From Novosphingobium sp. EMRT-2 (lineage in GTDB: Bacteria > Pseudomonadota > Alphaproteobacteria > Sphingomonadales > Sphingomonadaceae), in NCBI RefSeq assembly GCF_005145025.1, contig NZ_CP039695.1, forward strand, positions 2,475,501-2,539,500: DNA of 64,000 bases. Direction: 5' to 3'. Below, piece by piece: positions 12,672 to 64,000 of the stretch. Positions within the stretch are counted from its first letter, which is position 1. The number at the start of each line of letters is the position of its first letter. Made by a program: the position numbers and the translations under genes. Below the pieces are notes generated by a model, which was not told the origin of the DNA, did not search any database, and saw nothing but the letters and a program-made list of their open reading frames with translations.

Positions 12672-13112
12672 CTATTTCAGCGTCTTGAGATACTCGATGA
12701 TGGCCTTGCGCTTGGCCGGATCGGTCTGGCCGGAATAGGTCATCCGCGTGCCGGGCACGAGCTTCATCGGGTTTTCCAGCCACTTGTCGAGCGTGGCGTC
12801 ATCCCAGGTCAGTCCCGATCCCTTGAGCGCCGGGCTGAAGCTGAAGCCCGCGACATCGCCGGCCTTGGTGCCCACGATCCCGGCCAGGCTCGGCCCGATC
12901 ATGTTCTTGCCCTTGTCGACCGAATGGCAGGACTTGCAGATGCCGAAAGCGAGCGGCGCGCCATCGGCGGCCGTGCTTGGTGTCGCGGCCGGGGCGGACG
13001 TGTCCGCCGGGGCGTTGCCGCTCGCCGGCGTCTCCTCCTGCTTCGCGCTGCCACAGGCCGAAAGCGCCAGCGCCAGTCCGGCCGCGCATGCGCTTTTCAC
13101 CACCATTCTCAT
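12672..13112 (-). CDS. Lipoprotein class I cytochrome c
   Basis: A 146-residue protein with a lipoprotein signal (lipobox ALSAC, Cys20) and an Ala/Pro/Thr-rich linker to about residue 50. A small cytochrome c domain follows, with CKSCH at 59-63 and the axial Met in GTRMTYSG (Met124). The domain resembles mitochondrial-type cytochrome c (MIGPSLAGIVG, W-LENPMKLVPGTRM). It probably carries electrons between the bc1 complex and oxidases while tethered to a membrane. It is convergent with the sortase gene and divergent from the MATE gene. Confidence 0.9.
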   Translation of the reverse strand: MRMVVKSACAAGLALALSACGSAKQEETPASGNAPADTSAPAATPSTAADGAPLAFGICKSCHSVDKGKNMIGPSLAGIVGTKAGDVAGFSFSPALKGSGLTWDDATLDKWLENPMKLVPGTRMTYSGQTDPAKRKAIIEYLKTLK

Positions 13113-48551: not shown

Positions 48552-49406
48552 GTGCAAACCATCTCTAGGCTCGATACCCTGCGCGAAGCGGTGGACCTGC
48601 TCAAAAACGGGGGAAAAACCCTCGCGATCGTCCCCACCATGGGCGCATTGCACGAAGGGCACCTGACGCTGGTGCGCGAGGCGCGGCGGCGGGCGGATCA
48701 TGTGGCCGTGTCGATCTTCGTCAATCCGCGCCAGTTCGGCCCGAACGAGGATCTTGACGCCTATCCGCGCCGCATGGCGCAGGATGCGGCGCTGCTGGAG
48801 GTCGAGGGGGTGGCCCTGCTGTGGGCGCCCACGGTCGATCAGGTCTATCCCGAAGGCTATGCCACCAATGTCTCGGTCTCCGGGCTGGACGCGGTGCTGT
48901 GCGGCGCGGCGCGGCCAGGGCATTTCGACGGGGTGGCGACAGTGGTGTGCAAGCTGTTCAACCAGGTGCGGCCGGATATCGCGCTGTTCGGCGAGAAGGA
49001 CTGGCAGCAGCTCGCCATCATCCGCCGCATGGCGCGCGATCTCGATCTGACGCAGCCCCATGCCGACGCCATCATCGGCGTGCCCACGGTCCGCGAGGAC
49101 GATGGCCTCGCCATGAGCAGCCGCAACCAGTATCTCACGCCCACGGAACGGGCTCAGGCAGCAGGCCTTTCGCGGGCGATGCGCAAGGCGATTGCCGCGA
49201 TCGAAGGCGGCGCCGGGGTGGCCGGTACGCTTGCTACGCTGCGTGCCGAAATTCTCGCTTCCGGCTTCGCCTCGATCGATTACGCCGACCTGCGCGATGC
49301 GGCGACGCTGGAGGACGTGGCGGCCCTGACCGGACGGCCCGCCCGCCTGCTGGTTGCCGCGCGGATCGGCAAGGCGCGGCTGATCGACAACATGCCGGTG
49401 GGCTAG
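48552..49406 (+). CDS. panC: Pantothenate synthetase (pantoate-beta-alanine ligase)
   Basis: A 284-residue cytosolic enzyme joining pantoate and beta-alanine with ATP to give pantothenate. The HIGH-like motif is in PTMGALHEGHLTLV (HEGH 34-37). KDWQQLAIIRRM and the KMSKS-like AMSSRNQYL follow. Starts at GTG with AAAGGAGAGG upstream. It is divergent from mipZ and convergent with the TPR-sulfotransferase. Confidence 0.95.
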   Translation: MQTISRLDTLREAVDLLKNGGKTLAIVPTMGALHEGHLTLVREARRRADHVAVSIFVNPRQFGPNEDLDAYPRRMAQDAALLEVEGVALLWAPTVDQVYPEGYATNVSVSGLDAVLCGAARPGHFDGVATVVCKLFNQVRPDIALFGEKDWQQLAIIRRMARDLDLTQPHADAIIGVPTVREDDGLAMSSRNQYLTPTERAQAAGLSRAMRKAIAAIEGGAGVAGTLATLRAEILASGFASIDYADLRDAATLEDVAALTGRPARLLVAARIGKARLIDNMPVG

Positions 49407-51439
49407 GCGGCGGGGGCGTCCGGATAGGCGTCGATCACCGGGCCGAGCGCGGCACGCAGCGGGTCCAGCCATTCCGCGTAGTTCGCCCAGTGCTCCACCG
49501 CGTCCTTGAAGATCGGCTGGCGTACCTGCTCGGAACTTGCCGTGCGCACGGCCCGCCGGGTTTCCCAGAACGAGAGGCATGAGTCCTCGAACGGCAGCCC
49601 GAGGTGATCGAGCAGGCGGCGGACTTCGGTTTCGGTATCGGCCACCATCCGTTCGTAGATCACGCGGTGCACCGCACCGGGCGCCTGGCGGTCGAACGCG
49701 GCCATCAGCGCGACGTAATCGGCATAGTACCGGCCGATGTCGCCAAGATCATACGTGAACGTCTGCCCGCGCGCGAAATGCTGCTTCCAGCCGGAAAAGC
49801 AGCAGGCCATCGGATGGCGGCGCGCATCGACGATCCTGGCGTTGGGCAGGATCAGCCGGATCAGGCCGACGTGCTGCCAGTTGTTGGGCATCTTGTCGAT
49901 GAACAGCGGCTTGTCGGTCTGGCGGTGGACGCGGGTGCGCTCGATATATTCCTCGCCCAGCCGCAGCCGGTCCGCCGGCGTCAGCGAGGAGACCATAGCG
50001 CGGAAATCGGCAAATTCGCCCTCGTCCACACGCGCTTGCAGGCGGCTGGCGATGATCATCATCTCCGCCAGTTCCATCGTTCCTTCCACCTGGCTGTGGC
50101 TGGAAAGGATCTGCTCCACCAGCGTCGAGCCGGAGCGGGGCAGGCCGACGACGAAGATTGGATCGGGCGCGGGGCAGCCGCCTTCGCCCATCGCAGCGAT
50201 GAAGGCGCTGGTGAACGTCTCGCGCGTCGCGGCCACTTCCGCTGAAAACTGGTCCGCGTCATGCCGCACCATCGTGCGGCGCAGGTGGTTGCCCCGGTCA
50301 TAGTGGCGGAACGAGGCGGGATAGTCCTTCGCGTCCTCGTAGGCCTTCCCCAGCGAGAAGTGCAGGTGGAACACGTCTTCCTGCCGGTCCGCCGCGTCCG
50401 GCTCCAGCGTGGCCAGCGCCTGCTCCATCGCCGCGATGTCGTCCGTGCCGAACTTGACGGTCTTGAGATTGGCAAGGCTCCACCATGCCTCGCCCATGGT
50501 CGGCAGGTGCGCCACCGCCTGGCGATAGGCGTGCACCGCTTCGGCCTGTTCGCCGAGCGTCTTCAGCACATGGCCCAGGTTCTGCCAGACCTGCGGCTGG
50601 TCGGCCTTTTGCGCCAGCAGCTTTTCGTAAAGCGTCCGCGCCCGTTCCTGGTCGCCCAGCCGCACCAGCACGGAGGCCATGATCAGGTCGTGCCCCGGAT
50701 TGTTCACCGGCGAGCGCGCCAGCACTTCGGCGTGTTCGAGCGCTTCGGGCAGGCGGTTGGTCTGCAGCAGCAGGCGGATCAGGAAATCGCGGGCCAGATC
50801 GAAGCCTGGGGCAAGGTCCAGCGCGCGCCGGACGAGCGTCATTGCCTCGGCCATGTCCGCACGCCGCCATGCCACCTCGCCCAGCAGGCGCGTGCCCACG
50901 GGATCGTCGGGCAGCCGTTCCAGTCGTGCCTTCAGGGTGGCGGCGGCGTCCTCGAACTGCCCTTCGTTCATCGCCATCGCCGCCTGGACCAGTTCGGGAT
51001 CGCGCGACGCGGCGTGAATGCCGGAAAGGTCGGCGCGCCAGCCGTCTTCGTGGCGGCCCTGCTTGCGCAGTTCCCCCGCCAGCAGGAACCAGCCGCTCGC
51101 CACGCCTGGCTGCTGCCGGGTGAGACTTTCGAGCGCGGCGATTGCCTGACGGACATCGCCTGCTTCGCTGGCCGCCTGTGCCCATTCCCACAGCACCGGC
51201 GGCGCGGCGGGGTGCCTGCGGGCCAGCGCGGCGAGTCGCGGCAGGGCCGCCCCGGCGTTACCCAGCCGGCGCAGGGCCTGGCACGCAATCATTTCCGCCG
51301 GCGGCAGCCCGGGCGCGTTCTTCAGCACATCTTCGGCCTGTGCCAGCGCCGCTTCCGGGTCGGCATCGAGCAGCCGTACGGCACGCTCCAGCGCCTCGTT
51401 CGCTGTCTCTTCGCGACTGGCCGTCATGCTGCCCGCCAT
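49403..51439 (-). CDS. TPR-repeat sulfotransferase family protein
   Basis: A 678-residue protein. Residues about 10-370 are tetratricopeptide repeats; the C-terminal third is a PAPS-dependent sulfotransferase domain. The 5'-phosphosulfate-binding loop VGLPRSGSTLVEQIL lies near residue 430, and ARRHPMACCFSGWKQHF further on. Family members occur widely in alphaproteobacteria; acceptors are mostly unknown. Two ATGs 4 codons apart (51439, 51427) could be used. It overlaps the end of panC by 4 bases. Confidence 0.85.
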   Translation of the reverse strand: MAGSMTASREETANEALERAVRLLDADPEAALAQAEDVLKNAPGLPPAEMIACQALRRLGNAGAALPRLAALARRHPAAPPVLWEWAQAASEAGDVRQAIAALESLTRQQPGVASGWFLLAGELRKQGRHEDGWRADLSGIHAASRDPELVQAAMAMNEGQFEDAAATLKARLERLPDDPVGTRLLGEVAWRRADMAEAMTLVRRALDLAPGFDLARDFLIRLLLQTNRLPEALEHAEVLARSPVNNPGHDLIMASVLVRLGDQERARTLYEKLLAQKADQPQVWQNLGHVLKTLGEQAEAVHAYRQAVAHLPTMGEAWWSLANLKTVKFGTDDIAAMEQALATLEPDAADRQEDVFHLHFSLGKAYEDAKDYPASFRHYDRGNHLRRTMVRHDADQFSAEVAATRETFTSAFIAAMGEGGCPAPDPIFVVGLPRSGSTLVEQILSSHSQVEGTMELAEMMIIASRLQARVDEGEFADFRAMVSSLTPADRLRLGEEYIERTRVHRQTDKPLFIDKMPNNWQHVGLIRLILPNARIVDARRHPMACCFSGWKQHFARGQTFTYDLGDIGRYYADYVALMAAFDRQAPGAVHRVIYERMVADTETEVRRLLDHLGLPFEDSCLSFWETRRAVRTASSEQVRQPIFKDAVEHWANYAEWLDPLRAALGPVIDAYPDAPAA

Positions 51440-51843
51440 GTGTCGATCCCGTGCCTTGCCCGTGTTTTGCAACTGCGAAATTTGTGCCGACGGAAAGGAC
51501 ATTTGTCGAGTCAATATGCACCTCGGTGCTTTTGCAACAAGGAAGTTGACACCTGTCCAATCGCTGGCACTATCGATTTCGGACAGGCGTACTAACTTCG
51601 GTTTATGGCGCGAAAGTCCGGGGCATTTGAGAGTTTGAACCTGTCGTCGCCGCGCTGTGGCGGCGTTCCGCGAGGCGTCTGCTTCGCGGGGCCGGAAGAG
51701 TTGTGCGTGTGCGAGCGCTTGATTGTTCGCGATTGCACAATTTCCGCTCGGCAAGGCGGCAGGCACTGGTGGCGAGACCCGGCAACCGGGCCGCTCGATC
51801 CTTGGGGAAGGATGAAAGGCGCGAACATCAAAAAGGGGGGCTT
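51440..51843. other. Long upstream region of the TonB-dependent receptor gene
   Basis: About 400 bases without a credible gene. TTGACA (51546-51551) with ACTATC 17 bases on is a possible promoter. A perfect 7-base inverted repeat CCTGTCC...GGACAGG (51552-51587) overlaps it, a possible operator. The leader of about 265 bases before the ATG includes CCCGG-CAA-CCGGG and other stems. I looked for cobalamin and SAM riboswitch cores and did not recognise them. The ribosome site AAGGGGGGC is strong. Confidence 0.45.
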
Positions 51844-54561
51844 ATGAAAACTGCATGCAAGTCGCGCTCGCTCAAGATCATGGGAATGCTGGGCGCGTCG
51901 ACATTCCTGACCGGACTGGCGCTGCCCGGCACCGCCTTCGCGGAAGACCAGGCCGCCCCCGCCGAACAGCCGGCGGATGCCGCGCCTGCGACGGGTGAGG
52001 GCCTCGGCGAGATCATCGTGACCGCCACCCGCAGCGCGCAGAGCATCCAGAAGGTGCCGATCTCCATGCAGGCGCTCAGCGCCGACACGCTGGGGCAGCG
52101 GCAGGTCAAGGGCCTGAGCGACTTCGCCACGCTGCTGCCATCGGTCTCGTTCGCGGGCCTCGGGCCTGGCCGCCAGACCATCTATTTCCGCGGGATCGTC
52201 CCCGCCGGCGGCAACTACGCCTCGGCCGGCTATTATCTGGACGACATCCCGATCACCGGCACCGGTTCGCCCGATATCCATGCCTATGATCTGGAGCGCG
52301 TGGAGGCGCTGTCCGGTCCGCAGGGCACACTCTATGGCGCGGGTTCGCTGGCCGGTACGATCCGCATCATCACCAACAAGCCCAAGCTGGGCAAGTTCGA
52401 GTTCGGCGCGGAATCCGAAGTCAACAAGTACGGCAAGGGTGCCTTCGGCGGCCAGATCCAGGGCTACGTCAACCTGCCCGTCACCGAAACGGTGGCGGTG
52501 CGCGCGATGGCCTACTACCGGCGCGATGGCGGCTATGTCGACAACACGCCCAACAACGGCAAGTTCAACGACGGCCGATCGTCGACGCTCTCCCTTGGCG
52601 ACAACAATCCGCTCACCAGCTACACGCTCAACAACGCCGCGATCGCCAAGAAGGACTACAACCCGATCTACGAATATGGCGGCCGCCTGTCGCTGCTGTG
52701 GGAACCGGCGCCCGGCTGGGAGGTCAATCCACAGGTCACAGCGCAGCGGCAGATTGCCTATGGCTATTTCGGTTACGATCCGCGCGTCGGCGATTTGCAG
52801 GTCCACGATTACGACCTCACGCGGCAGGACGACAAATGGGTGCAGGCCCAGTTGAGCATCCACGGCCACATCGGCGACTTCGACGTCGTCTCGGCGACGG
52901 GCATCTTCCGCCGCAACACCAAGCTGCGTAACGATTACACCTATTACACCGTGACTTATGACGGTTTCGGCGGCGGATACGAAAACTATCTGCAGTTCTT
53001 CGACAAGGCGGGCTGTACCGGATCGGGCTTGACGCTCAAGTGTTCGACGCTGATCAACCCTACTCAATACTATCACCAGGACAACAACCGCAACAAGTTC
53101 ACCCAGGAACTGCGCATCTCGACGCCTAAGAGCTGGCCCTTCGATCTGACGATCGGCGGTTTCTACCAGTCGCAACAGCAGGAAAACAACAACTACTACG
53201 CGATCCACGGCCTTGACCAGATCGCGGGCTATACCAAGGCTGGCGCGTACAGTTCCGGCAGCGGCGATACCACGACTCTGGCTGGTTTCGGCATCCCGAC
53301 CGCGGCAGGCGGCACGATGGTGGTCAGCCCGTCCGCCGCGGTGAAGGGCGATGGCTTCTACATCACCGAGAACAACCAGAGCTACCACGACGAGGCGATC
53401 TTCGCCGAGGGTCACTACAAGATCTTCGAGAACCTGAAGCTGACCGGCGGCATCCGGTACTTCTGGACCGACTACAAGATCAAGGGCTTCTCCGGCGTTA
53501 CCGCGTCAGCGCTCGGCGTGGGTTGTACCGTGCCCCTGCCGGCCGAGCGCATCGCGTGTTCCAACCAGAACCCGCTCGCGGCGGACGGCTACGGCCGGTA
53601 CAAGGAGCAGGGAGAAACGCACAAGGTGGCGCTCGACTGGCAGGTCACGCCAACCAAGATGATCTATTTCAACTATTCCACCGGCTTCCGGCCGGGCGGC
53701 TACAACCGGCCGCTGCGCATCCGCGCTTCGGGCGGGCTGCCGCAGGTGACGGTCGCCGCGCCGGCGTTCAAGTCGGAAACGCTCACCAACTTCGAACTGG
53801 GCGTCAAGACGACGTGGAACAACATCTTCCGCTTCAACGCCGCCATCTACCTCGAAAACTGGGACAACATCCAGTACGGCGTGGTCGTCGCCGGCGCGCA
53901 GGGGGCGGGTTACACCGGCAACGCCGGCACGGCCCAGGTCAAGGGCGTGGAATACGATGCCGATCTCAAGCTCGGCAAAGTCACCATCTCCACCTCAGGT
54001 GCTTACAACGACGGCAAGCTGACCGGTAACTTCTGCAACTTCGTGGCGGACCGTGCCGCCTTGTCGATCGTGCAGCTGGCCTCTTGCCCGACCGGTTCGA
54101 GGGTCGTCGTGAACGGCACCTCGACCTCCGCGGTCGCTGCCGCAGACGGTACCCGGCTGCCGCGTCAGCCGCAATTCAAGGGGACGACCTCGATCCGCTA
54201 TGACACCACAGTTGGTGACTATGCGGTCTATCTGCAGGGCGCGGCGTTGTATCAGACCTCGGCGACGCAGGACCTGAACGTCGAGCAGAACAACCTTCTG
54301 ACCTGCACCACCTTGGCGCTTGCCGCTTCGCAGACCGCTGCCGGAAAATCCTGCAGCACTCCGGGGTTTGTCAGCTTCGATTTCTCCGGTGGTATCAAGA
54401 TCAATAACTGGAGCTTCGACGTGTTCATCCAGAACGCGTTCGACAAGCGCGGCACGCTGACCACGAACACCTTCTGTTCGATCACGTTCTGCTCCGGATC
54501 GTCGCGCAACTTCACGATCCGCCCGCAGTTCTTCGGTCTGCGCGCCGGCGTGAAATACTGA
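51844..54561 (+). CDS. TonB-dependent outer-membrane receptor
   Basis: A 905-residue beta-barrel receptor. The signal peptide ends near residue 33 (LALPGTAFA). A TonB box and plug follow: GEIIVTATRSAQSIQKVPIS and VEALSGPQGTLYGAGSLAGT. A long 22-strand-type barrel ends in an aromatic-rich FFGLRAGVKY. It belongs to the FecA/FyuA-like group common in sphingomonads for aromatic compounds, sugars or siderophores; the ligand cannot be told. Eight or more cysteines in loops, including the C-terminal CSITFCSGS, are unusual for a receptor of this class. Its energy comes from a TonB system such as that at 40.3-43 kb. Confidence 0.92.
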   Translation: MKTACKSRSLKIMGMLGASTFLTGLALPGTAFAEDQAAPAEQPADAAPATGEGLGEIIVTATRSAQSIQKVPISMQALSADTLGQRQVKGLSDFATLLPSVSFAGLGPGRQTIYFRGIVPAGGNYASAGYYLDDIPITGTGSPDIHAYDLERVEALSGPQGTLYGAGSLAGTIRIITNKPKLGKFEFGAESEVNKYGKGAFGGQIQGYVNLPVTETVAVRAMAYYRRDGGYVDNTPNNGKFNDGRSSTLSLGDNNPLTSYTLNNAAIAKKDYNPIYEYGGRLSLLWEPAPGWEVNPQVTAQRQIAYGYFGYDPRVGDLQVHDYDLTRQDDKWVQAQLSIHGHIGDFDVVSATGIFRRNTKLRNDYTYYTVTYDGFGGGYENYLQFFDKAGCTGSGLTLKCSTLINPTQYYHQDNNRNKFTQELRISTPKSWPFDLTIGGFYQSQQQENNNYYAIHGLDQIAGYTKAGAYSSGSGDTTTLAGFGIPTAAGGTMVVSPSAAVKGDGFYITENNQSYHDEAIFAEGHYKIFENLKLTGGIRYFWTDYKIKGFSGVTASALGVGCTVPLPAERIACSNQNPLAADGYGRYKEQGETHKVALDWQVTPTKMIYFNYSTGFRPGGYNRPLRIRASGGLPQVTVAAPAFKSETLTNFELGVKTTWNNIFRFNAAIYLENWDNIQYGVVVAGAQGAGYTGNAGTAQVKGVEYDADLKLGKVTISTSGAYNDGKLTGNFCNFVADRAALSIVQLASCPTGSRVVVNGTSTSAVAAADGTRLPRQPQFKGTTSIRYDTTVGDYAVYLQGAALYQTSATQDLNVEQNNLLTCTTLALAASQTAAGKSCSTPGFVSFDFSGGIKINNWSFDVFIQNAFDKRGTLTTNTFCSITFCSGSSRNFTIRPQFFGLRAGVKY

Positions 54562-54658: not shown

Positions 54659-55423
54659 TCAGGCGGGCAATTCCGCTCGGGACAACAGCAGCGCACGCAA
54701 CCGTTCTGCGCGATTGCCATCGGGCGGCAAGCCGGCGCCGGCCCGCGCCGCGAAGCCGCTCGCCTGCGCGGTGGCGAAGCTGATGCCATAGAGGTTGCGC
54801 CGGGGCGGAACGCCGGGGATCGGGCGCGGGTAGCCCGAGGCGAACAGCACCCCGTCCCGCACGCGCCAGGTCTCGCGCGGACAGTCCCAGTCCAGCCCCA
54901 CGCCCAGCACGTTGTCCGCATCGAGCGCGCCCGGCCAGCAGGGGGTGCCATCGGCCTCGCGCGCGGCAACGATCAGTGCGCCGGCTTCCGCCGCCCGCGC
55001 CGCCACGCTGGCGAATCCCTCCCGATGCGCGGCGTTGGTCGTGCCGAGGCTCAGGTTGATCACGTCCGCGCCCTGCTCGATGCTCCAGCCGATCGCCAGC
55101 GCCAGCGCGCCGGCGCTGGTCTTCAGCGCATCGTGGAACACGCGCACCGGCAGGATCAGCGCGTCCGGCGCCTTTTCCTGGATGGCGGCGGTAACGGCGG
55201 TGCCGTGGCCGAGTCGGTCGAGCGTGGCGTCGGCTGCGTCGGACAGGGTGCCGTCCGACGCGATGGCCACGCCCGGCAGCAGCTTCGCGCCGTCGATATG
55301 CGGATGATCGGGGTGGACGCCGCTGTCGATCACGGCGACGCGCACGCCGTGTCGGGTTCCGGCGTGCGGGGCAGGGCCGTCAGGCAAAGGCCGGCTCGTT
55401 CGCGGCCACGGTGGCGTGGCCAT
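54659..55423 (-). CDS. qhpE: QhpE, subtilisin-like protease that processes the QHNDH gamma subunit
   Basis: A 254-residue S8 family serine protease without a signal peptide. The triad is Asp33 (AVIDSG), His73 (GHGTAV) and Ser215 (GISFA, in place of the usual GTSMA). Its place at the end of the qhp operon matches QhpE of Paracoccus, which cuts the leader from the crosslinked gamma subunit before export (family knowledge). The ATG at 55423 overlaps the preceding ABC-transporter gene by 44 bases. It is small for an S8 protease, lacking a propeptide and extra domains, as expected for a dedicated maturation protease. Confidence 0.9.
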   Translation of the reverse strand: MATPPWPRTSRPLPDGPAPHAGTRHGVRVAVIDSGVHPDHPHIDGAKLLPGVAIASDGTLSDAADATLDRLGHGTAVTAAIQEKAPDALILPVRVFHDALKTSAGALALAIGWSIEQGADVINLSLGTTNAAHREGFASVAARAAEAGALIVAAREADGTPCWPGALDADNVLGVGLDWDCPRETWRVRDGVLFASGYPRPIPGVPPRRNLYGISFATAQASGFAARAGAGLPPDGNRAERLRALLLSRAELPA

Positions 55424-57083
55424 GGTCCAGCGTGACGATCAGGTCTGCGCGTCGGGCCAGCGCAGGCTTGTGCGTGATGACCACGATCGTCGCCTGCGGC
55501 AGCGCCGCGCGCAGCCCGTCGGCCACGCGCTGCTCGGTGCCCTCGTCCAGCGCGGCGGTCGGCTCGTCGAGGATCAGCACGGAGGGCTCGCGTAGCAGCG
55601 CGCGGGCCAGCGCGATGCGCTGCCGCTCGCCCGCCGAAAGCGCCATGCCGCGCTCGCCGGTGCGGGTATCGAGCCCCTGCGGCAGGCGAAGCAGCAGCGG
55701 TTCCAGCCCGGCGGCCGCTGCGGCCTGGGCAATACGCGCGCTTGGCACGCCGTCCATGGCGAAGGCGATGTTGCCGGCGATGGTGTCGTTGAACAGGTAC
55801 GGCGCCTGATCGACCAGCAGCACCTCGCGCCGCAGGTCGGCCAGGCACGTCTGCCGCAGGTCGTGCCCGTCGACGAGGATGCGGCCCTGCTGCGGATCGA
55901 GGAAGCGGACCATCAGGTCGGCCATGGTCGATTTGCCCGCGCCGCTTTCGCCCAGGATTGCGCAGAAGCTGCCGGCGGGAACGAATAGGTCCACGCCCGC
56001 CAGCACCGGTTCGCGATCGTGGCGGAACGAGACGCGCTCGAACCGGATGCCCTGCCGCACCGGGCCGAGCGGGCGCGCATCGGCCGGTTCGGTTACCTCC
56101 GCCGGGGTATCGAACAGCTCGAAGATCCGCGCCAGCGAAACGCGGGTGGAGGCCAGGCCCGAAGACAGCCCCAGCAGCGCCTGGATCGGCCCGAACAGAC
56201 GCATGTGATAGGCCATGAAGGCGACGAGCGCGCCGATCGTCATCTCGCCGTGGATGATCCGCGTTCCGCCATAGAGGATCACCACCGAGGTCGAGGCGGT
56301 GAGCAGCGTGCCGGGCAGCGCCCCGGTCATGAACGAGGCGACCTGCATCTTCAGCATCGCGCGCACGAACGCGCCGTTGCGGGCGCCGAAGCGGTCGACC
56401 TCGTGCGTCTCCGCGCCGAGTGCGGCGACCACGCGCATGCCCATCACGGTATCGACCAGCAGGCTGCCGAGGTCCGCCCCGCGCTCGCGCATTTCGCGGG
56501 TGAGCGCGGTGACCTTCTTCTGGAAGTGCAGGAAGACCATGACCGCCACCGGCACCAGCACCGTACCGATCAGGAACAGCCGCCAGTCGAGCCACACCAT
56601 CATCGCCACGCAGCCCATGAAGAACAGCACGTTGCTCAGCACCGAAAGCAGCGTGTCGCCCGCCGCACGCTGCACGTCGCTGACATCGCTGTTGATGCGC
56701 GACATCAGGTCGCCCAGCCGGAAGCCGCCGTAGAAACGAGGGCTGAGCGTCTGCAGATGGCGCAGCAGCGCCACGCGAATGTCATAGAGCATCGCCGCCG
56801 ACAGCCCGACGTAGCGATAGCTGGCGAGGATGTTCAGCGCGAAGCCGGCCAGCGTGACCACGATCATCGCGCCCGACACGGCCAGCAGCGCGTCCATGTT
56901 CCGGCGCAGCAGTGCCTCGTCGATCATCAGCTTGGAAAGATAGGGCTGCGCCAGGCCCACCCCGGTCGAAAGCAGGCTGACCAGCAGCACGCACAGCAGC
57001 GGTCGCAAATAGGGGCGCACATAGGGCAGCAGCCGGCGATAGGTGCCCCAGTCGGCCACGGGCGGCGGCGGTGCAGCTGTCAT
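55380..57083 (-). CDS. qhpF: QhpF, ABC transporter (fused permease and ATPase) of the QHNDH operon
   Basis: A 567-residue MsbA-type half transporter: six membrane helices (about 25-300) and a C-terminal ATPase domain. Walker A is GESGAGKST at 378-386, signature LSAGERQRIALARALL, Walker B VLILDEPTAALD. In Paracoccus, QhpF probably exports the gamma subunit (or its processed form) to the periplasm, bypassing Sec and Tat; that role is inferred from operon membership. It lies 29 bases after qhpG and overlaps qhpE by 44. Confidence 0.9.
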   Translation of the reverse strand: MTAAPPPPVADWGTYRRLLPYVRPYLRPLLCVLLVSLLSTGVGLAQPYLSKLMIDEALLRRNMDALLAVSGAMIVVTLAGFALNILASYRYVGLSAAMLYDIRVALLRHLQTLSPRFYGGFRLGDLMSRINSDVSDVQRAAGDTLLSVLSNVLFFMGCVAMMVWLDWRLFLIGTVLVPVAVMVFLHFQKKVTALTREMRERGADLGSLLVDTVMGMRVVAALGAETHEVDRFGARNGAFVRAMLKMQVASFMTGALPGTLLTASTSVVILYGGTRIIHGEMTIGALVAFMAYHMRLFGPIQALLGLSSGLASTRVSLARIFELFDTPAEVTEPADARPLGPVRQGIRFERVSFRHDREPVLAGVDLFVPAGSFCAILGESGAGKSTMADLMVRFLDPQQGRILVDGHDLRQTCLADLRREVLLVDQAPYLFNDTIAGNIAFAMDGVPSARIAQAAAAAGLEPLLLRLPQGLDTRTGERGMALSAGERQRIALARALLREPSVLILDEPTAALDEGTEQRVADGLRAALPQATIVVITHKPALARRADLIVTLDHGHATVAANEPAFA

Positions 57084-57112
57084 AGGGGCCGAATTCGAGG
57101 CGGGAGGCTGGC

Positions 57113-58144
57113 TCAGGCGGCCGCCTCCCGCGCGAACAGGCGGTTGCCACGCAGCAAAAAGCGCGGTTCGGGCACGCGCGCCAACTGGCCGGTGCACCAG
57201 GCATGGCCCTGCGCCAGCGCGTCTGCCTGTTCGCGCCACCAGGGCGTGTCGCCCCCTGAGCGGTAGAACGGCAGGCTGACCTGCAGGTGCCGCCGCATCG
57301 CGGCGATCAGCATGGCCCGGTAATGCCCCAGCAGCGCGTCCCGATCGCCGCCGTCGCGGATCGCGGCCAGCACCGCCGCGGCGAGGATGGCCTCGCGCGC
57401 GGCCTGCGCGGTGCCGTCACCGCAGATCGGATCGAAGGCGATCGCCGCGGTGCCGCAGGCGATCCAGTCCGGCCCGGCGACCTGGTCCAGCAGGCGCGGC
57501 GCGGTTTCGAAGCGCGCGCCCGCCGGCCCCAGCGTGTCGATGAGCGGCGCGATCAGGCGGCTTTGCGCGAGCAAGGCTTCCGGCGAACAGCCCACGCCCA
57601 GCAGCCAGGCGGCGTCCGCCCCTTGCGGAATCAGGAACAGCCAGCCTTTGGGCGTGGCTTCGACATGGCAGGTCGCGTGATCGGCCCCCGCGCGCAGCGT
57701 GACCGGCGCGGCCACCGCCTCGCGCGTGCCGAAGCGGCGCAGCGCCGGCTCGGGAAACGGGGGCGCGCCGTGGATGGTGAAGGGGGCGGGGGCCTCGCTA
57801 GCCGCCGGCGGGAACCCGGCGGGCAGTGCCGGCAGGCCCAGTTCGGCCTCGATCTGCGCCCCGGTCACCACCGCCGCGCCATGCGGCAGCGGCGCGGACA
57901 CGCTGCCGCCCCACGAAACCACGCGTCGTTCGATGCGGGGCAAGGCGGCGAACAGGCTCGGCCGGCCGAAGATGTCGCGCAGCAGCGCCAGCGCCGGATC
58001 GCTCAGCATGATGACGGGAACGGGGGCGCGCGGTTCGACCGCCGCCCCCGCCAAGCAAAACCCGTCTTGCGCCAGCAGGTGCGCGCAGGTCGCGACGGAA
58101 ACGCCGCCGCCCCGCAATCGCACCGCTGGCTGTGGTCCGGTCAT
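57113..58144 (-). CDS. qhpG: QhpG, flavin-dependent monooxygenase for CTQ formation
   Basis: A 343-residue FAD-dependent oxygenase of the tryptophan-halogenase/class A monooxygenase type. The N-terminal dinucleotide motif is GGGVSVATCAHLLAQDGF, and a GWLFLIPQGADAAWLLGVG strand and FDPICGDGTAQAAREAILAA helix form the FAD-pyrophosphate site. In Paracoccus, QhpG hydroxylates the gamma-subunit tryptophan that becomes CTQ. The protein is short for the family, with a compressed segment after the first motif. Its place between qhpB and qhpF differs from the Paracoccus order. Confidence 0.8.
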   Translation of the reverse strand: MTGPQPAVRLRGGGVSVATCAHLLAQDGFCLAGAAVEPRAPVPVIMLSDPALALLRDIFGRPSLFAALPRIERRVVSWGGSVSAPLPHGAAVVTGAQIEAELGLPALPAGFPPAASEAPAPFTIHGAPPFPEPALRRFGTREAVAAPVTLRAGADHATCHVEATPKGWLFLIPQGADAAWLLGVGCSPEALLAQSRLIAPLIDTLGPAGARFETAPRLLDQVAGPDWIACGTAAIAFDPICGDGTAQAAREAILAAAVLAAIRDGGDRDALLGHYRAMLIAAMRRHLQVSLPFYRSGGDTPWWREQADALAQGHAWCTGQLARVPEPRFLLRGNRLFAREAAA

Positions 58145-58168
58145 GGGCGTCCTGTCATCGTCTTTCCG

Positions 58169-59278
58169 CTATTTCAGATGGAGCAGGCCAGCCATGGTGG
58201 CATCGGCGCCAAGATCCCAGGTGCGTTCGTACTTGAGCGTCTTGGCGTCGTACACCTCGATGTCATAGCTTGCGCCGTGGATGTACAGCTTCTGCCCGTC
58301 GGCCGAGATGCCGAACGAGAAGCGCGAACGGCAGTGGAATTCGGCCTTCTCCATCACCTTGTTGGTGGCCATGTCGAAGTGCCAGAATTCGCAACGCTTG
58401 TTGCCGAGCGTGCCGTTGGTGACGACGGTATAGCCGTCCTTGCCGTCGGGCGTCACTTCCAGCCCGGCCATGCCGGTGGGCACCGGGCCGACCGGGGTGA
58501 AATCGAACGTGCGGTTGGTCAGGTTGAAGCGCCCGATGCCGAACATCTTGGCATGGACATAGGGGTCGGACGCGTTGAACAGCGAGACGAACTCGTTGGG
58601 GTTCTGCAACGCTTCCACGCCGCCGCCGAACGCCACGTTCTCCATGCCGGTGGTTTCGGGCTTGGCCAGGTCCAGCCGGTCGCTGACCTTGAGGGTCGCC
58701 GTATCGATCACCAGCACCTTGTCGCCGAACTTGTACAGCGTCTTGCCGTCGGGCGAGAGCGCGAAGGTCGGGCGGAAGCCGCCGAGCGTATCGTCCTGTG
58801 GATCGATCTCCACCGTCCGCGCGACCTTCTTCTGCTGAAGATCGATCACCGCGTAGAGCGGCTTGCTCACCTTGTAGCGGTCCGGTTCCTTGTCGAAGCG
58901 GATGAGCTGGGTGTAGTACCAGCGGCCCGTCGGATCGGGAACGCCGCCCATGAAGCGGTACTTGGTGGTAGGCGTGTTCAGGCTGAACTGGTTGAGGATG
59001 CGCCGCGTGGCGTTGTCCAGCACCACGATCCCGCTGGTGGTGATCGTGGTGACGTAGATCTTCGCCTTGTCGTTGGACAGGCGCAGCGATGTGGGCAGGC
59101 CCGCCTGCAGCTGGATGCGATCGGTGATCGCGCCGTTGGTGTCGTCGATCGTGAACAGCTTGTCCGGATACGTGCCGATCATCATCGTGCCGGCATGGGC
59201 AGGCGCGACGGCGGCCACGATGGCGGCAGCGGCGGGGATCAGGACTTTGAGGCCGGGCAGGGAACGAAGCTGCTTCAT
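58169..59278 (-). CDS. qhpB: QhpB, beta subunit of quinohemoprotein amine dehydrogenase
   Basis: A 369-residue periplasmic protein with signal peptide (cleavage after Ala29). The mature part is a seven-bladed beta-propeller of YVTN-type repeats (PDGKTLYKFGDKVLVIDTAT, SADGQKLYIHGASYDIEVYD). It supports the CTQ-bearing gamma subunit in the heterotrimer. I start at MKQLRSLPG, preceded by GGAAGAG. It follows qhpC after 94 bases, the largest gap within the operon. Confidence 0.93.
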   Translation of the reverse strand: MKQLRSLPGLKVLIPAAAAIVAAVAPAHAGTMMIGTYPDKLFTIDDTNGAITDRIQLQAGLPTSLRLSNDKAKIYVTTITTSGIVVLDNATRRILNQFSLNTPTTKYRFMGGVPDPTGRWYYTQLIRFDKEPDRYKVSKPLYAVIDLQQKKVARTVEIDPQDDTLGGFRPTFALSPDGKTLYKFGDKVLVIDTATLKVSDRLDLAKPETTGMENVAFGGGVEALQNPNEFVSLFNASDPYVHAKMFGIGRFNLTNRTFDFTPVGPVPTGMAGLEVTPDGKDGYTVVTNGTLGNKRCEFWHFDMATNKVMEKAEFHCRSRFSFGISADGQKLYIHGASYDIEVYDAKTLKYERTWDLGADATMAGLLHLK

Positions 59279-59372
59279 CGTGCTTCTCTTCCTCGAAGGG
59301 GCGCGCCGCAGGAACGCGGCAGGTCCGCCCCGGATGGTCAGGGTTCGGCGTGGCAGGCGCGGGTGCGCCCGA

Positions 59373-59702
59373 TCACGGGAAGACGAGATCGAGATTGCGC
59401 CAGTCCTTCGTCGCCGCCGCGCAATTGCTCGCCCAGTCCGGCGAATAGTTGACGTGGTCGGGCACTTGCACCGGCCAGAAGCAGGTGACGTAGCAATCGT
59501 AGATGTCGCGCTCGACCGGCTGGCACAGGCCCGCCGTGCCGCCCCCGGCATCGACTTCCCACCCCGGCGAGAACGACAGGGTGCACCCCATCGGCACGTG
59601 CGGGCGCGGCTGCTGCTGCAGCGCGACGACGTCTTCTTCGACCGAAGTGATGGTCTCTTCGATCTTCTGGGCCTTCTTATTGATCGGCTTGAGATGCTTC
59701 AT
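59373..59702 (-). CDS. qhpC: QhpC, gamma subunit of quinohemoprotein amine dehydrogenase (precursor of CTQ)
   Basis: A 109-residue precursor: a charged leader (about 1-33) and a small cysteine-rich core. Aligned by eye to Paracoccus numbering, Cys40-Glu49, Cys60-Asp66 and Cys74-Asp82 correspond to the three known Cys-to-acidic thioether bridges (C7-E16, C27-D33, C41-D49), and Cys70-Trp76 to the CTQ pair (C37-W43). All eight partners are present with exact spacing. The leader lacks a Sec or Tat signal. An additional Cys94, in DWASNCAAATKDW, has no counterpart in the Paracoccus sequence I recall. Start overlaps qhpD stop by 4 bases. Confidence 0.95.
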   Translation of the reverse strand: MKHLKPINKKAQKIEETITSVEEDVVALQQQPRPHVPMGCTLSFSPGWEVDAGGGTAGLCQPVERDIYDCYVTCFWPVQVPDHVNYSPDWASNCAAATKDWRNLDLVFP

Positions 59703-61153
59703 GACAAGCCCTTTCGTTCAGCGAAGCGTTCGAGGAAGCCGGGGTTGCGCACGGCCAGCGTGCCGTAGATCTTCAGGCACGTATCGGTCCATTGGCGGAT
59801 CCAGTCGCAATAATGCAGGTTGGCGTGACCGGTATCGCCATAGCGGACGAAGGCCTCGTGATGGCAGCCGCCGGCGCAAAGCGGGCGCGCCCAGCACGAT
59901 TGGCATTCGTACTTGGCCTGGACGTGCCCGCGCGAGAGGAAGTCCTCGCGCTTGCCCTGGTCGATCCCGGTGGAGATGTGGCCCAGCGTGTGCGTATCGG
60001 CATCGGTGAAGCGGTGGCAGGGCGAAAGATCGCCCGACGGGCTCACGCCCAGCAGGCCCAGCCCCGCGCCGCACGGGTGCGACTTGTTGGTGCCCTGGAT
60101 CAGTTCGCCGATAGTTTCGCTGACGTTGGTGAAGCCGTGCATCCGCCCGTGCAGCGCATAGTCCAGCCACTCTTCGGCAAGGGCGTGGAAACCGGCGAGG
60201 ACGCCGGTCATGTCATCGCCGTTCAGCGAATACTCGCGCTCCTCGCCCGCGGTCGTTACTGGCGCGAAGCCCACTTCGTGGAAGCCGATGTCGTCCTTGA
60301 GATGGCGGTAGATGCGGATCACGTCGGTGACCCCGGCCGTCAGGGTGACGCGCGCGGTGATCGCGCGCGTCCGGTGCCGGGCGATCAGCTTGCGCAGGCG
60401 CGGCTCGATCACCGCGTAGCTGCCCTTGCCGCTCTTGTACACGCGGCGCGCGTCCTGCATTTCCGCCGGGCCGTCCATGCTGACCGTGACGCCGATCGCG
60501 TTGTCCGAGAGGAAATCGATGATCTCGTCGGTCAGCAGCGTGGCGTTGGTGGTCAGGCTGAAGGTGATCTTGCGCCCCTGCGCCGCCGCCTGCTCGTTTG
60601 CATAGCCCACCACGTCGCGCAGCAGGCGGAAGTTCATCAGCGTTTCGCCGCCGAAGAACGTGATGTGCACCGCTTCGCGGTTGCCCGATCCGGCCAGCAG
60701 GAAATCGACCGAGGACTTCGCGGTTTCCAGCGCCATGTATTTCGGCTTGCCGGCGGGCGTGGCGATCTTGTCCGCGCCGAATTCGTAGCAATAGGTGCAG
60801 GCCAGGTTGCACTGGTTGGTGACGTTGAGCACCAGCGCCTGCAGGGGATAGTCCGCCGGCGGGGCGGACGGCGCGGGCGCGGTGGTGACCTGTTCCGAAT
60901 GGATCGCGCGGACCTGCCGCAATTCGCGGATCAGGTCCTCCGCGTCCGCCGGGGAATGGCCCGCGCCGGCCAGTGCCGTGGCCAGTTCCTCGTGGCTCAT
61001 CTCGCCCTCGTCGAGCAGATCGAGCACGGCGCGGGTGCCTTCGTCGAGCGCGAAGATCGCGCCCGCCGAAACCAGGTACATGAAGTCCGTGTCGGACGAG
61101 CGGAATTCGTGTAGTTCGCCGCGCCGGTAGCGGTGGGCCAGCATGGTCGTCAT
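59699..61153 (-). CDS. qhpD: QhpD, radical SAM/SPASM maturase forming gamma-subunit thioether bridges
   Basis: A 484-residue radical SAM enzyme. The cluster motif CNLACTYC has Cys115, Cys119 and Cys122. A C-terminal SPASM domain carries CGAGLGLLGVSPSGDLSPCH and CQSCWARPLCAGGC for two auxiliary [4Fe-4S] clusters. The N-terminal 100 residues form a RiPP-recognition-like region. It matches the QHNDH maturase family (quino_hemo_SAM), which links Cys sulfur to Asp/Glu carbon in QhpC. Its ATG overlaps the qhpA stop, and its stop overlaps the qhpC start, so three genes are translationally coupled. Confidence 0.95.
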   Translation of the reverse strand: MTTMLAHRYRRGELHEFRSSDTDFMYLVSAGAIFALDEGTRAVLDLLDEGEMSHEELATALAGAGHSPADAEDLIRELRQVRAIHSEQVTTAPAPSAPPADYPLQALVLNVTNQCNLACTYCYEFGADKIATPAGKPKYMALETAKSSVDFLLAGSGNREAVHITFFGGETLMNFRLLRDVVGYANEQAAAQGRKITFSLTTNATLLTDEIIDFLSDNAIGVTVSMDGPAEMQDARRVYKSGKGSYAVIEPRLRKLIARHRTRAITARVTLTAGVTDVIRIYRHLKDDIGFHEVGFAPVTTAGEEREYSLNGDDMTGVLAGFHALAEEWLDYALHGRMHGFTNVSETIGELIQGTNKSHPCGAGLGLLGVSPSGDLSPCHRFTDADTHTLGHISTGIDQGKREDFLSRGHVQAKYECQSCWARPLCAGGCHHEAFVRYGDTGHANLHYCDWIRQWTDTCLKIYGTLAVRNPGFLERFAERKGLS

Positions 61154-62982
61154 TGGGAAACCTCCGGCTGGTCCCAGCGCTTGTAGGCGGGAACGGTGAC
61201 GACGAGGTAGGACTTGGCCGTCAGCGGCTTGCCCTGGGCGTCCTTTTCGGCCTTGGCCGTGGCGACGATCCACACTTCGCCATAGTTGTTGCGGTTGCCG
61301 CTGCGTTGCGGGTTGGGGCCGTCCACGTTCGGCGTGAACAGCGCCTTCTGGCTGATCGATCCGACATAGGCCTTGTCGTCATCGTACCAGACCGACTGGA
61401 ATTCCTGGACGCTCCAGTCCGCGGCGACGGGGCCGACGTTCACGTCGTCGGCGGTGTTGGGCTTGCCATCGGGGCCGTTGTCGAAGCCCACGGCGTCGAA
61501 CTGGGCGTAGCCCTTGGCGAAGTGCGCGCCGCCCAGCCGCGAAAGGTTGGTGTCGGGCGTGACCTTCAGGTAATCGACCTTGCGATAGACCGGCAGGGCC
61601 GAAGCGAGCACCGCGCTCCCCACCGAAACATCATGCACGCCGGCGACAGCGCCGGGGGCGGCATCGACAGATACGACGATTTCGGTGGGGCTCGCGGTGA
61701 CGACCCTGGTCACCGCTAGCCCGGCGCCAAGGTCGATATCCTTCGCAGTCGGCGCAGCCGGCAGGCTATCGCCGAAAATGTGGACGTCCACCCCCCTGGT
61801 GCCGGCCTTGATCGCGTTCGGCCAGACAGCGCCGATCGTCGGGCTGCCGTCGGCGCGCACCAGCTTCACGTCGAATCCGAATTCCTGATATTCCCCCCAG
61901 AACCAACGGCCTTCGGCGTTCTTGCGATCGGGCGAGAACCACATCGTCTCGCGCGTCGGATTGTCGAGCGCGTCGGGTGCCGAAGGCTGCGCGGACGGCG
62001 CGGAGCGTCCGCGCCAGCTGTAGCCGGCATAGACGATGCCGTTGCCGGTCCGGCTCAGTGTCGATCCGTCGGTCAGCGACCGCAGCGCGATGCCGGTCTT
62101 GAATTCGTCGCTGTCGGCCGTGGCACCGATGGTCATCGTGCCGACGAACCGGCCCTTGCCGGGGGCAGAGGCGCTGACCAGCCATTTGCCGGCCAGGCGC
62201 GGGTCCTGCATCCGGGACTTCCACTGTGTCCATTCGGGCGTGTGCAGCGGGGCGACCTTGCGCGTGTAGTCCAGCGCGATCTGGCCCTGCGTCACCGGCG
62301 TCGCACCGGGCTTGGTCACGATCGGCGTGGGCTGGCCGAAGACCGCGCCGGGCTCGTCCGTGGCGGGGCGGCGATACTGCACGTCGGCCTGCGAATAGAG
62401 CGCGACGTGGAAATCCTGCAGAAGCTTCCATTCGGTGCCCGACCGGCGCCAGGACAGCGGCTGGGCGAAGGCGTGGCAGGTAGCACAGGCGCCGCGCAGG
62501 GATTCGCTGGGGATGTTGGTCTCGTCCTGGATGCGATGCTCCACGAGGTACATCACCGGCTTCGCTTCCTCGGGCGCAAGGCCATGACTGGCCGAAAGAT
62601 AGCGGACCACCTGACGCGATTCCTCGGGCGTGATCTGCAAGCCGTTCAATTTGACCATGCGCTTGATCGCCTGCGCCCAGCCTTCCGGCGTGGTGCGCAG
62701 CCAGGAAATGCGCGAAAGATTGCCCTTGGCATCGGCGGTATGGCACGCGCCGCACTTTTCCTTGGTCAGGCTGTCGGTGACCGGGATGCCTTCCTCGCTC
62801 TCCGGCTTGTCCGCCCCACCGGTCATGCCGCCGGCCTGCGCGACGACGGCGGTCGCGGTGCACAGGCCCGCCAACAGCAACGGGCGCAACGAAAAGCGAG
62901 CCGTCAGCGCGGCCCGCCACGACGGGCTGGCGGCGGCATCCTGCGCATCGAGTGGACGGGACTCGGTATCCGGGTAGGCCAT
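61150..62982 (-). CDS. qhpA: QhpA, di-heme alpha subunit of quinohemoprotein amine dehydrogenase
   Basis: A 610-residue periplasmic subunit with a hydrophobic N-terminal export signal (about 33-50). Two c-type heme sites are present: CGACH at 77-81 and CATCH at 166-170. The remaining two-thirds are beta domains, as in the Paracoccus and Pseudomonas enzymes (GKWLVSASAPGKGRFVG, DNGPDGKPNTADDVNVGPVA). It passes electrons from CTQ, reduced by primary amines, to external cytochromes or copper proteins. GGGGGA precedes the ATG. First gene of the seven-gene operon. Confidence 0.95.
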   Translation of the reverse strand: MAYPDTESRPLDAQDAAASPSWRAALTARFSLRPLLLAGLCTATAVVAQAGGMTGGADKPESEEGIPVTDSLTKEKCGACHTADAKGNLSRISWLRTTPEGWAQAIKRMVKLNGLQITPEESRQVVRYLSASHGLAPEEAKPVMYLVEHRIQDETNIPSESLRGACATCHAFAQPLSWRRSGTEWKLLQDFHVALYSQADVQYRRPATDEPGAVFGQPTPIVTKPGATPVTQGQIALDYTRKVAPLHTPEWTQWKSRMQDPRLAGKWLVSASAPGKGRFVGTMTIGATADSDEFKTGIALRSLTDGSTLSRTGNGIVYAGYSWRGRSAPSAQPSAPDALDNPTRETMWFSPDRKNAEGRWFWGEYQEFGFDVKLVRADGSPTIGAVWPNAIKAGTRGVDVHIFGDSLPAAPTAKDIDLGAGLAVTRVVTASPTEIVVSVDAAPGAVAGVHDVSVGSAVLASALPVYRKVDYLKVTPDTNLSRLGGAHFAKGYAQFDAVGFDNGPDGKPNTADDVNVGPVAADWSVQEFQSVWYDDDKAYVGSISQKALFTPNVDGPNPQRSGNRNNYGEVWIVATAKAEKDAQGKPLTAKSYLVVTVPAYKRWDQPEVSQ

Positions 62983-63193: not shown

Positions 63194-64000
63194 TCAGGTC
63201 AACTGCAACGGCAGGGATCGCAGCCGTTTGCCGGTGGCGGCGCGGATGGCGTTGGCGATCGCCGGAATGACCGGCGGCAGCGCCGGTTCGCCCAGCCCGG
63301 TGGGCGGGAAATCGCTCTTCACCCAGGTGATCGCGACATCGCGCGGCACGGCATCGATGCGCAGCAGCGGGAAATCGCCGAAGTTGTCGGCCGTGATCGC
63401 GCCCGCCTCCTGCACCACCGGCTGCCACACCAGCGCCTGCGCGATGCCGTCGATCGCCGCGCCCTGCGACTGGTGTTCGGCATTGAGCGGATTGATGATC
63501 TGGCTGCCGATGTCGCCCGCCATCCAGATCTTGTCGACCTTCACCGACGTTCCGCCCGAGACCGTGACGTCGACGACTTCCGCGAAATAGCCGCGATGGC
63601 TGAAATAGAAGCCGAAGCCGCGCCCCTTGACCGCATCGCCCGCGCCCTTGGCGGGGCCTGTGCGCCCGGTCCAGTTCGCGGCCTTGCACACCGCGTCGAT
63701 CACGCTGCGGGCGCGGCCGGTGTGGAACACCAGCCCCTTGCGCTCGGTCGGCAGTTCGCGCGGTGCGCCCAGCGTCCGGCGCATCAGTTCGGGCAAGTCG
63801 AGGCCGGCGGCTTCCGCCACCTCGTCGAGGAAGCCCTGGTACACGAAGGCCATGGCGTTGGACGTCGGCGCGCGCAGCCAGCCGGTCGGCAGGTTGGTCT
63901 TGAGATAGGTCGCGCCCAGGTGGGCATCGGGCACTACCGGAGCGGGAAATTCGGTGGAGCTCATTTCCGCCGCGCGGATCGGCTTGCCGTCCGCGCCGAA
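63194..64000 (-). CDS. Molybdopterin-binding subunit of a xanthine dehydrogenase/isoquinoline oxidoreductase family enzyme (5' end outside the window)
   Basis: The last 269 codons; the reading frame remains open through base 64000, so the ATG at 63964 is internal and the gene starts beyond the window. The C-terminal Mo-cofactor domain shows HLGATYLKTNLPTGWLRAPT, NPLNAEHQSQGAAIDGIAQA and the end signature GLGEPALPPVIPAIANAI. The glutamate in GLGEPAL aligns with the catalytic Glu of this family. Similarity is highest to IorB-type periplasmic aldehyde or isoquinoline oxidoreductases. Substrate unknown. Adjacent to the qhp operon but with its own terminator. Confidence 0.88.
   Translation of the reverse strand, partial: FGADGKPIRAAEMSSTEFPAPVVPDAHLGATYLKTNLPTGWLRAPTSNAMAFVYQGFLDEVAEAAGLDLPELMRRTLGAPRELPTERKGLVFHTGRARSVIDAVCKAANWTGRTGPAKGAGDAVKGRGFGFYFSHRGYFAEVVDVTVSGGTSVKVDKIWMAGDIGSQIINPLNAEHQSQGAAIDGIAQALVWQPVVQEAGAITADNFGDFPLLRIDAVPRDVAITWVKSDFPPTGLGEPALPPVIPAIANAIRAATGKRLRSLPLQLT

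Follow-up and report, generated by a model that had tools for sequence, protein, structure and literature searches.

We examined a stretch of 64,000 nt from Novosphingobium sp. EMRT-2 (contig NZ_CP039695.1, positions 2,475,501 to 2,539,500; hereafter the window) that carries a qhp operon, the product of which would be a periplasmic quinohemoprotein amine dehydrogenase (QHNDH) with a cysteine tryptophylquinone (CTQ) cofactor. The notable feature of this operon is not its gene order, which a first-pass annotation of the window had singled out, but the gene in the place of qhpG: it encodes a short QhpG-like protein (short G below) in which most of the flavin adenine dinucleotide (FAD) site is lost. 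From sequences and a structure model, we give a rough probability of 0.57 to the reading that the operon yields a functional enzyme and that a QhpG-like protein without the classical FAD pocket matures its cofactor. In the published pathway, QhpD crosslinks QhpC, QhpG dihydroxylates Trp43 of QhpC, QhpE cuts the leader, QhpF exports the protein, and the QhpA hemes may finish the quinone (PMC7876137).

Comparison of short and canonical QhpG

The first-pass annotation labeled the gene simply qhpG and passed over what is unusual in it, a score far under the QhpG model and the missing FAD-site residues. The median length of short G is 337 amino acids (aa) vs 447 aa for canonical QhpG, and seven short forms scanned with the QhpG model NF049967 scored 46-62 bits against a cut-off of 240. 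The predicted structure of short G retains the QhpG/halogenase fold (7CTQ), and its best Foldseek match is 7ctq_A (E 2.5e-13). The winged-helix domain (residues 349-429) is gone: the window protein stops at residue 343, whereas a canonical control model of 452 residues has C-terminal elements. In this control model (pLDDT, predicted local distance difference test, 88.9) four strands follow the helix 87-100; in the short model the corresponding stretch is low-confidence coil with a single short strand, and the adenine-side strands are absent from this model. In a Pfam search at E 0.1, FAD_binding_3 was detected in 24/24 canonical proteins, whereas any FAD/NAD-type domain appeared in at most 3/22 short forms (best E 0.048).

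The loss can be followed residue by residue in an alignment of 116 canonical and 117 short proteins (four of 120 were dropped by length from each set, and the window protein was added to the short set), with canonical QhpG numbering and residue roles taken from PMC7876137. The protein lists used in this work were the best 120 of 650, the best 120 of 422, and the best 120 of 2453 matches, and are biased samples. Glu42, Arg89, and Asp260 are found in 116/116 canonical proteins and 0/117 short forms, which carry instead Ile (72), Val (32), Leu (12), or Ala (1) at position 42, mostly Glu (70) or Gly (45) at 89, and mostly Thr (81), Ser (25), or Met (9) at 260. Arg140, likewise present in 116/116 canonical proteins, has no counterpart in the aligned short forms, and Gly15, the third Gly of the GxGxxG motif, is Gly in 113/116 canonical but only 9/117 short sequences. 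The window protein itself has Val17, Ile45, Gly95, and Thr232 in place of Gly15, Glu42, Arg89, and Asp260, and no partner for Arg140.

The substrate side is better preserved. The equivalents of Arg70, Trp74, Trp181, Asp266, Pro267, Gly270, Arg314, and Phe322 are invariant in the short forms (117/117), with Leu268 changed to Ile in 114/117, Ser269 to Cys in 116, and His/Asn271 to Asp in 117. Also invariant or nearly so in short G are Cys241, Asp243, His88, His274, Arg284/285, and His286; judging from conservation, a metal site formed by Cys241, Asp243, His88, His274, and His286 is conceivable.

QhpC and the other operon proteins

The substrate protein was compared in 66 QhpC sequences of the branch to which the window belongs (the window and 65 of 86 short-G loci, those with a called open reading frame, ORF) and 128 canonical sequences (120 database proteins and 8 loci). 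The CTQ residues Cys37 and Trp43 and the thioether partners Cys7/Glu16, Cys27/Asp33, and Cys41/Asp49 (roles from PMC8172795) are invariant in 66/66 and 128/128 sequences. Position 36 is Asp in 66/66 branch sequences vs Gly in 128/128 canonical ones, position 39 is Val vs Asp, position 42 is Phe (65) or Tyr (1) vs Trp, and position 61 is Cys in 66/66 vs 1/128. In the published docking model Trp42 of QhpC sits in a hydrophobic pocket of QhpG (PMC7876137). At the level of sequence, QhpC is altered in step with short G. The one canonical QhpC with Cys61 (P0345) lies on a contig of 507 bases and combines a canonical first half with a branch-like C-terminal half; it may be a chimeric assembly or a real recombinant.

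The other operon parts look functional: the heme ligands, the cysteines of QhpD, and the triad of QhpE are all retained. In QhpA the heme Cys/His residues, Met109, and His192 are kept in 73/73 branch proteins (window included) and 13/13 canonical ones, with two CxxCH motifs throughout; in QhpD ten cysteines are kept in the same 73/73 and 13/13; and in QhpE Asp33/His73/Ser215 are present in 79/79 and 6/6, respectively. QhpD residue 459 is an extra Cys in 71/73 branch proteins vs Gly in 13/13 canonical ones. Strict pairing between Cys459 of QhpD and Cys61 of QhpC was considered and not borne out: two of the 73 QhpD proteins are without Cys459, and Cys61 is present in 66/66 QhpC.

Distribution and selection

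The operon falls in a deep and separate qhp branch found in Novosphingobium, Sphingobium, Phenylobacterium, Acetobacter, and metagenome-assembled genomes of Acidobacteria. In a QhpD tree of 45 rows without an outgroup, a single branch, very long and with full support, divided the 32 short-G rows (window included) from the 13 canonical rows. QhpA and short G coincide in the same 7/397 genomes of the family, which were found via QhpA. Three samples, with 7/385, 7/397, and 7/398 positive genomes (the window's genome counted in each), gave 19 QhpA-positive genomes. The seven sphingomonad genomes among them scored 433-539 bits with a short-G model and had no QhpG over the cut-off; of the other 12, 11 had a QhpG over the cut-off and reached at most 46 bits with the short-G model, and the twelfth, with a qhp contig of 5.4 kb, had neither. 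A profile search of the window's genome found no canonical QhpG over the cut-off elsewhere, and the other matches were weak and N-terminal. This one-for-one replacement in the genomes examined, together with a substrate channel much of which is kept, suggests that short G acts at the step of QhpG.

The ratio of nonsynonymous to synonymous substitution rates (dN/dS) of short G was 0.28, 0.20, and 0.32 in three comparisons; in two of them it fell within the range of the neighboring genes, and in the closest pair it exceeded that of each of the other six genes. The operon genes are under purifying selection in these three pairwise comparisons. A frameshifted or pseudogenized qhpG was rejected on the intact ORF and these ratios.

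Operon structure and gene order

On the minus strand at 54659-62982 the window has seven ORFs in the order A-D-C-B-G-F-E, none of them frameshifted (Table 1). All seven gene types are present and intact, in agreement with the first-pass annotation, and a complete CTQ amine dehydrogenase operon is supported by the sequence. QhpA, QhpD, QhpC, and QhpE score above the NCBIfam equivalog cut-offs, and QhpB and short G score below; the 25 of 185 families listed include no QhpF-specific model, and qhpF was called by Pfam only. The start of qhpB was set at MKQLRS within a longer ORF, with a signal peptide apparent by eye, and that of qhpF at MTAAPP in an ORF open to 57239. The start of qhpE is ambiguous (ATG at 55423, or GTG at 55345, four codons ahead of the conserved IDSG motif), and the 44-base overlap of qhpE and qhpF described earlier holds for the ATG and becomes a 34-base gap for the GTG. 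The A/D and D/C overlaps are four bases each, and gaps of 94, 24, and 29 bases separate C-B, B-G, and G-F; such short spacing and overlaps would fit a single transcript.

Table 1. Predicted genes of the qhp operon and its neighbors (window positions)
Gene	Position	Strand	Predicted product and matches
qhpA	61150..62982	-	alpha subunit; two c-type heme motifs, CGACH and CATCH; TIGR03908 599 bits (cut-off 274); four QHNDH alpha Pfam domains
qhpD	59699..61153	-	radical S-adenosylmethionine (SAM)/SPASM thioether-forming maturase; TIGR03906 679 bits (cut-off 453)
qhpC	59373..59702	-	gamma-subunit precursor with leader; NF037958 147 bits (cut-off 50)
qhpB	58169..59278	-	beta subunit, divergent; TIGR03907 60.3 bits, under cut-off 223.2
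short QhpG-like gene	57113..58144	-	343 aa; NF049967 52.5 bits, under cut-off 240 (model of 423 positions)
qhpF	55380..57083	-	ATP-binding cassette (ABC) exporter, membrane and ATPase domains; PF00664, PF00005
qhpE	54659..55423	-	subtilisin-like leader peptidase; NF049966 183 bits (cut-off 165)
TonB-dependent receptor	51703..54561	+	convergent with the operon; PF00593, PF07715
sulfotransferase with tetratricopeptide repeats (TPR-sulfotransferase)	49403..51766	-	PF13469 and TPRs; neighbor of the receptor
molybdopterin oxidoreductase large subunit, C-terminal end	63194..64000	-	PF20256; cut by the window edge, continues upstream

The order of the genes had been taken as a noteworthy rearrangement. 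We compared 86 loci, 80 gathered from an alignment of short G and six more, from sphingomonads, through QhpA; loci collected through short G cannot demonstrate its constant presence. The exact order A-D-C-B-G-F-E is found in 66/86, and in a further 8/86 a part of it is visible before the contig stops (L031, L042, L051, L057, L063, L075, L079, L084). Twelve of the 86 deviate, 9 of these with Acidobacteria-type titles (Acidobacteriia, Bryobacterales, Bryobacteraceae): in five (L066, L071, L080, L091, L092) G-F-E or F lies apart from or opposite to A-D-C-B, and in four (L074, L081, L082, L089) only G-F-E or G was seen. L038, L050, and L067 seem to be without some expected genes; in L050 (9166-13318, Novosphingobium cyanobacteriorum) D and C are seemingly gone and a 3' piece of A precedes B, either through a deletion or through faulty assembly. 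The 13 canonical loci are not uniform in gene order: F is transcribed before E in six of the seven loci where both are seen, and G can be on either strand and to either side. According to the 2021 QhpG paper, too, qhp genes vary in arrangement, order, and strand (PMC7876137). With the 66 identical loci and this published variability, we rejected gene order as a novelty; a standard order shared by related genomes is what the first-pass annotation itself had named as evidence against its claim.

Neighboring genes

The TonB-dependent receptor directly adjoins the operon, as had been noted, and among the 63 loci with 3 kb of sequence beyond E, 30 have a relative of it that begins within 2.5 kb of that gene. 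Relatives of the TPR-sulfotransferase occur in 36/80 loci, and the two genes recur as a pair beside operons of this branch. Molybdopterin oxidoreductase relatives are present in 25/80 loci, and this enzyme could oxidize the aldehyde product. Other recurrent neighbors are a TetR gene, a gene without a family match, and a tryptophan tryptophylquinone (TTQ) amine dehydrogenase cluster.

Upstream of the operon, outside the window, lies a TetR/BetI-like gene. A TTQ-type cluster (methylamine/aromatic amine dehydrogenase-like) is located past the right window edge at ∼2543.7-2547.3 kb (L114:6695-10252); it comprises a heavy chain, MauE, and a light chain assigned by Pfam, a MauD whose NCBIfam score falls slightly short of the cut-off, and a protein with a CxxCH motif. 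In all, three TTQ light-chain matches were found in the genome. In four other loci (L027, L051, L064, L083) a TTQ light-chain gene precedes qhpA by 582-717 bases, on the same strand, and co-transcription of the TTQ and CTQ genes there may be possible. No AraC-type gene (HTH_18) was found near the operon: of 20 matches genome-wide, the nearest two on the contig are ∼264 kb and 476 kb away, which bears out the earlier statement that no AraC-type qhpR is nearby. The cytochrome c gene said to be close was not confirmed, since the sole CxxCH ORF in the window besides qhpA (among ORFs of at least 80 aa passing a codon-composition filter) is at 12672-13112, 41 kb off.

Discussion

We propose that QhpC would be made with a leader and that QhpD would install its Cys-to-Asp/Glu thioethers. 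Short G would take the place of QhpG, dock the Trp43 loop of QhpC in its conserved channel, and promote oxidation of Trp43. QhpE would then remove the leader and QhpF export QhpC, which would join the two-heme QhpA and QhpB before CTQ is completed. Short G probably works without canonically bound FAD, that is, with no cofactor, with another cofactor (a metal near Cys241/Asp243), or with flavin bound otherwise. More tentatively, the tryptophylquinone may form without a classical flavoprotein, through a metal site of Cys241/Asp243/His88 or through substrate activation and autoxidation, with QhpD forming a fourth thioether via Cys61, possibly with Asp36.

Several observations weigh against a maturase without the classical FAD pocket. 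The alignment is weak at the segment called lost (∼7CTQ 105-145), and the corresponding block of the short model has a pLDDT of 50-65. The Foldseek and VIA matches listed (50 each) look like flavoprotein families throughout, and 3 of 21 source names of short G are those of FAD enzymes, the other 18 being hypothetical. Among the flavin contacts, Arg36 is retained in 97/117 short forms, Ala14 as Ala or Ser in 110/117, Pro267 in 117/117, and the first two glycines of GxGxxG in 109/117, so flavin might be held in another way. On the substrate side the channel residues Glu84, Arg47, Arg307, and Trp183 are replaced. In canonical QhpG, mutation of Glu42, Trp183, Arg47, Arg70, or Arg314 removed nearly all activity and/or substrate binding (PMC7876137), and the short form retains 2/5 of these residues.

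The strongest alternative, which we nevertheless find doubtful, is that short G is a non-catalytic scaffold holding QhpC (and QhpD), and that Trp43 becomes oxidized by itself, by the QhpA hemes following export, or through an enzyme whose gene lies elsewhere. A protein with most substrate-channel residues invariant and cofactor residues lost would fit such a role, and the authors of the QhpG study suggest that QhpD and QhpG assist one another in modifying QhpC within the QhpCDG complex (PMC7876137). However, the conserved Cys241, Asp243, His88, His274, Arg284/285, and His286 seem to go beyond the needs of a scaffold, and no further oxygenase was recognized among the 45 largest neighboring-ORF clusters of 80 loci, mostly judged by eye and without a search for genome-wide candidates.

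It is unlikely that short G is still an FAD monooxygenase that binds FAD (or reduced flavin supplied by a partner) by means of other residues and dihydroxylates Trp43 by the published C4a-hydroperoxide route. The shared fold with 7ctq as the first PDB match, the mostly retained Arg36, Ala14, Pro267, and first two glycines, and the preserved part of the re-face channel speak for it. Against it, Arg89, Asp260, and the mutation-sensitive Glu42, Arg47, and Trp183 are replaced, the model is without adenine-side strands, and four of the six FAD-site residues common to QhpG and CmlS (PMC7876137) are lost or have no partner.

We regard as very improbable that the operon is decaying or its enzyme is without CTQ: the lost FAD residues and the loci that seem to be without expected genes (L038, L050, L067) would agree with decay, but the CTQ residues and all thioether partners of QhpC, the heme ligands, and the dN/dS of short G (0.20-0.32) do not. 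Equally improbable is an ordinary QHNDH operon with gene order as its sole peculiarity, since, although the seven gene types are all there, the order is standard within the branch, G and B fall far under the equivalog cut-offs, and the short-G residues and the two QhpD clans with the long branch between them already contradict it.

The nearest known counterparts of this operon are the QHNDH (qhp) systems of Paracoccus denitrificans and Pseudomonas putida. Common to them are the seven gene types, QhpC Cys37/Trp43 with three Cys-Asp/Glu pairs, the two-heme alpha subunit, the radical SAM protein QhpD, the subtilisin-like QhpE, and the ABC exporter QhpF. The branch differs in its separate QhpD clan, the altered QhpC loop, the extra Cys61, the replaced QhpG, and the absence of an AraC gene nearby; median identity to canonical loci is ∼36% (A), 39% (D), 26% (B, 11 canonical), and 36% (F, 7 canonical). 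Short G resembles QhpG (7CTQ, NF049967) in its predicted fold, most channel residues, and, by operon context, its position in the pathway, but is without the winged helix, Glu42, Arg47, Arg89, Trp183, Asp260, and a counterpart of Arg140. LodB and GoxB, the CTQ maturases of lysine and glycine oxidases, also serve CTQ maturation and match the C-terminal part of short G weakly, but at 19-42 bits vs cut-offs of 400; their partners LodA and GoxA are different proteins (PMC7876137).

QhpG puts both oxygens on a protein tryptophan and is called an atypical flavin monooxygenase by its authors, who know of no other dihydroxylase in the flavin monooxygenase family and base the mechanism on tightly bound FAD (PMC7876137). 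We found no published description of the short-G variant in the literature searched, and operon papers of 2012, 2014, and 2015 may mention it. Rab GDI/REP, eukaryotic proteins of unrelated function, are a precedent for an FAD-monooxygenase-like fold that works without FAD. A branch of apparently healthy operons in which the FAD site is mostly gone and the channel largely kept raises the question of whether flavin is needed. It supplies natural variants of enzyme and substrate altered in step, and provides both a name and a means of testing for a protein family in which 18/21 source names read 'hypothetical protein'. How CTQ is formed in this branch becomes a testable question.

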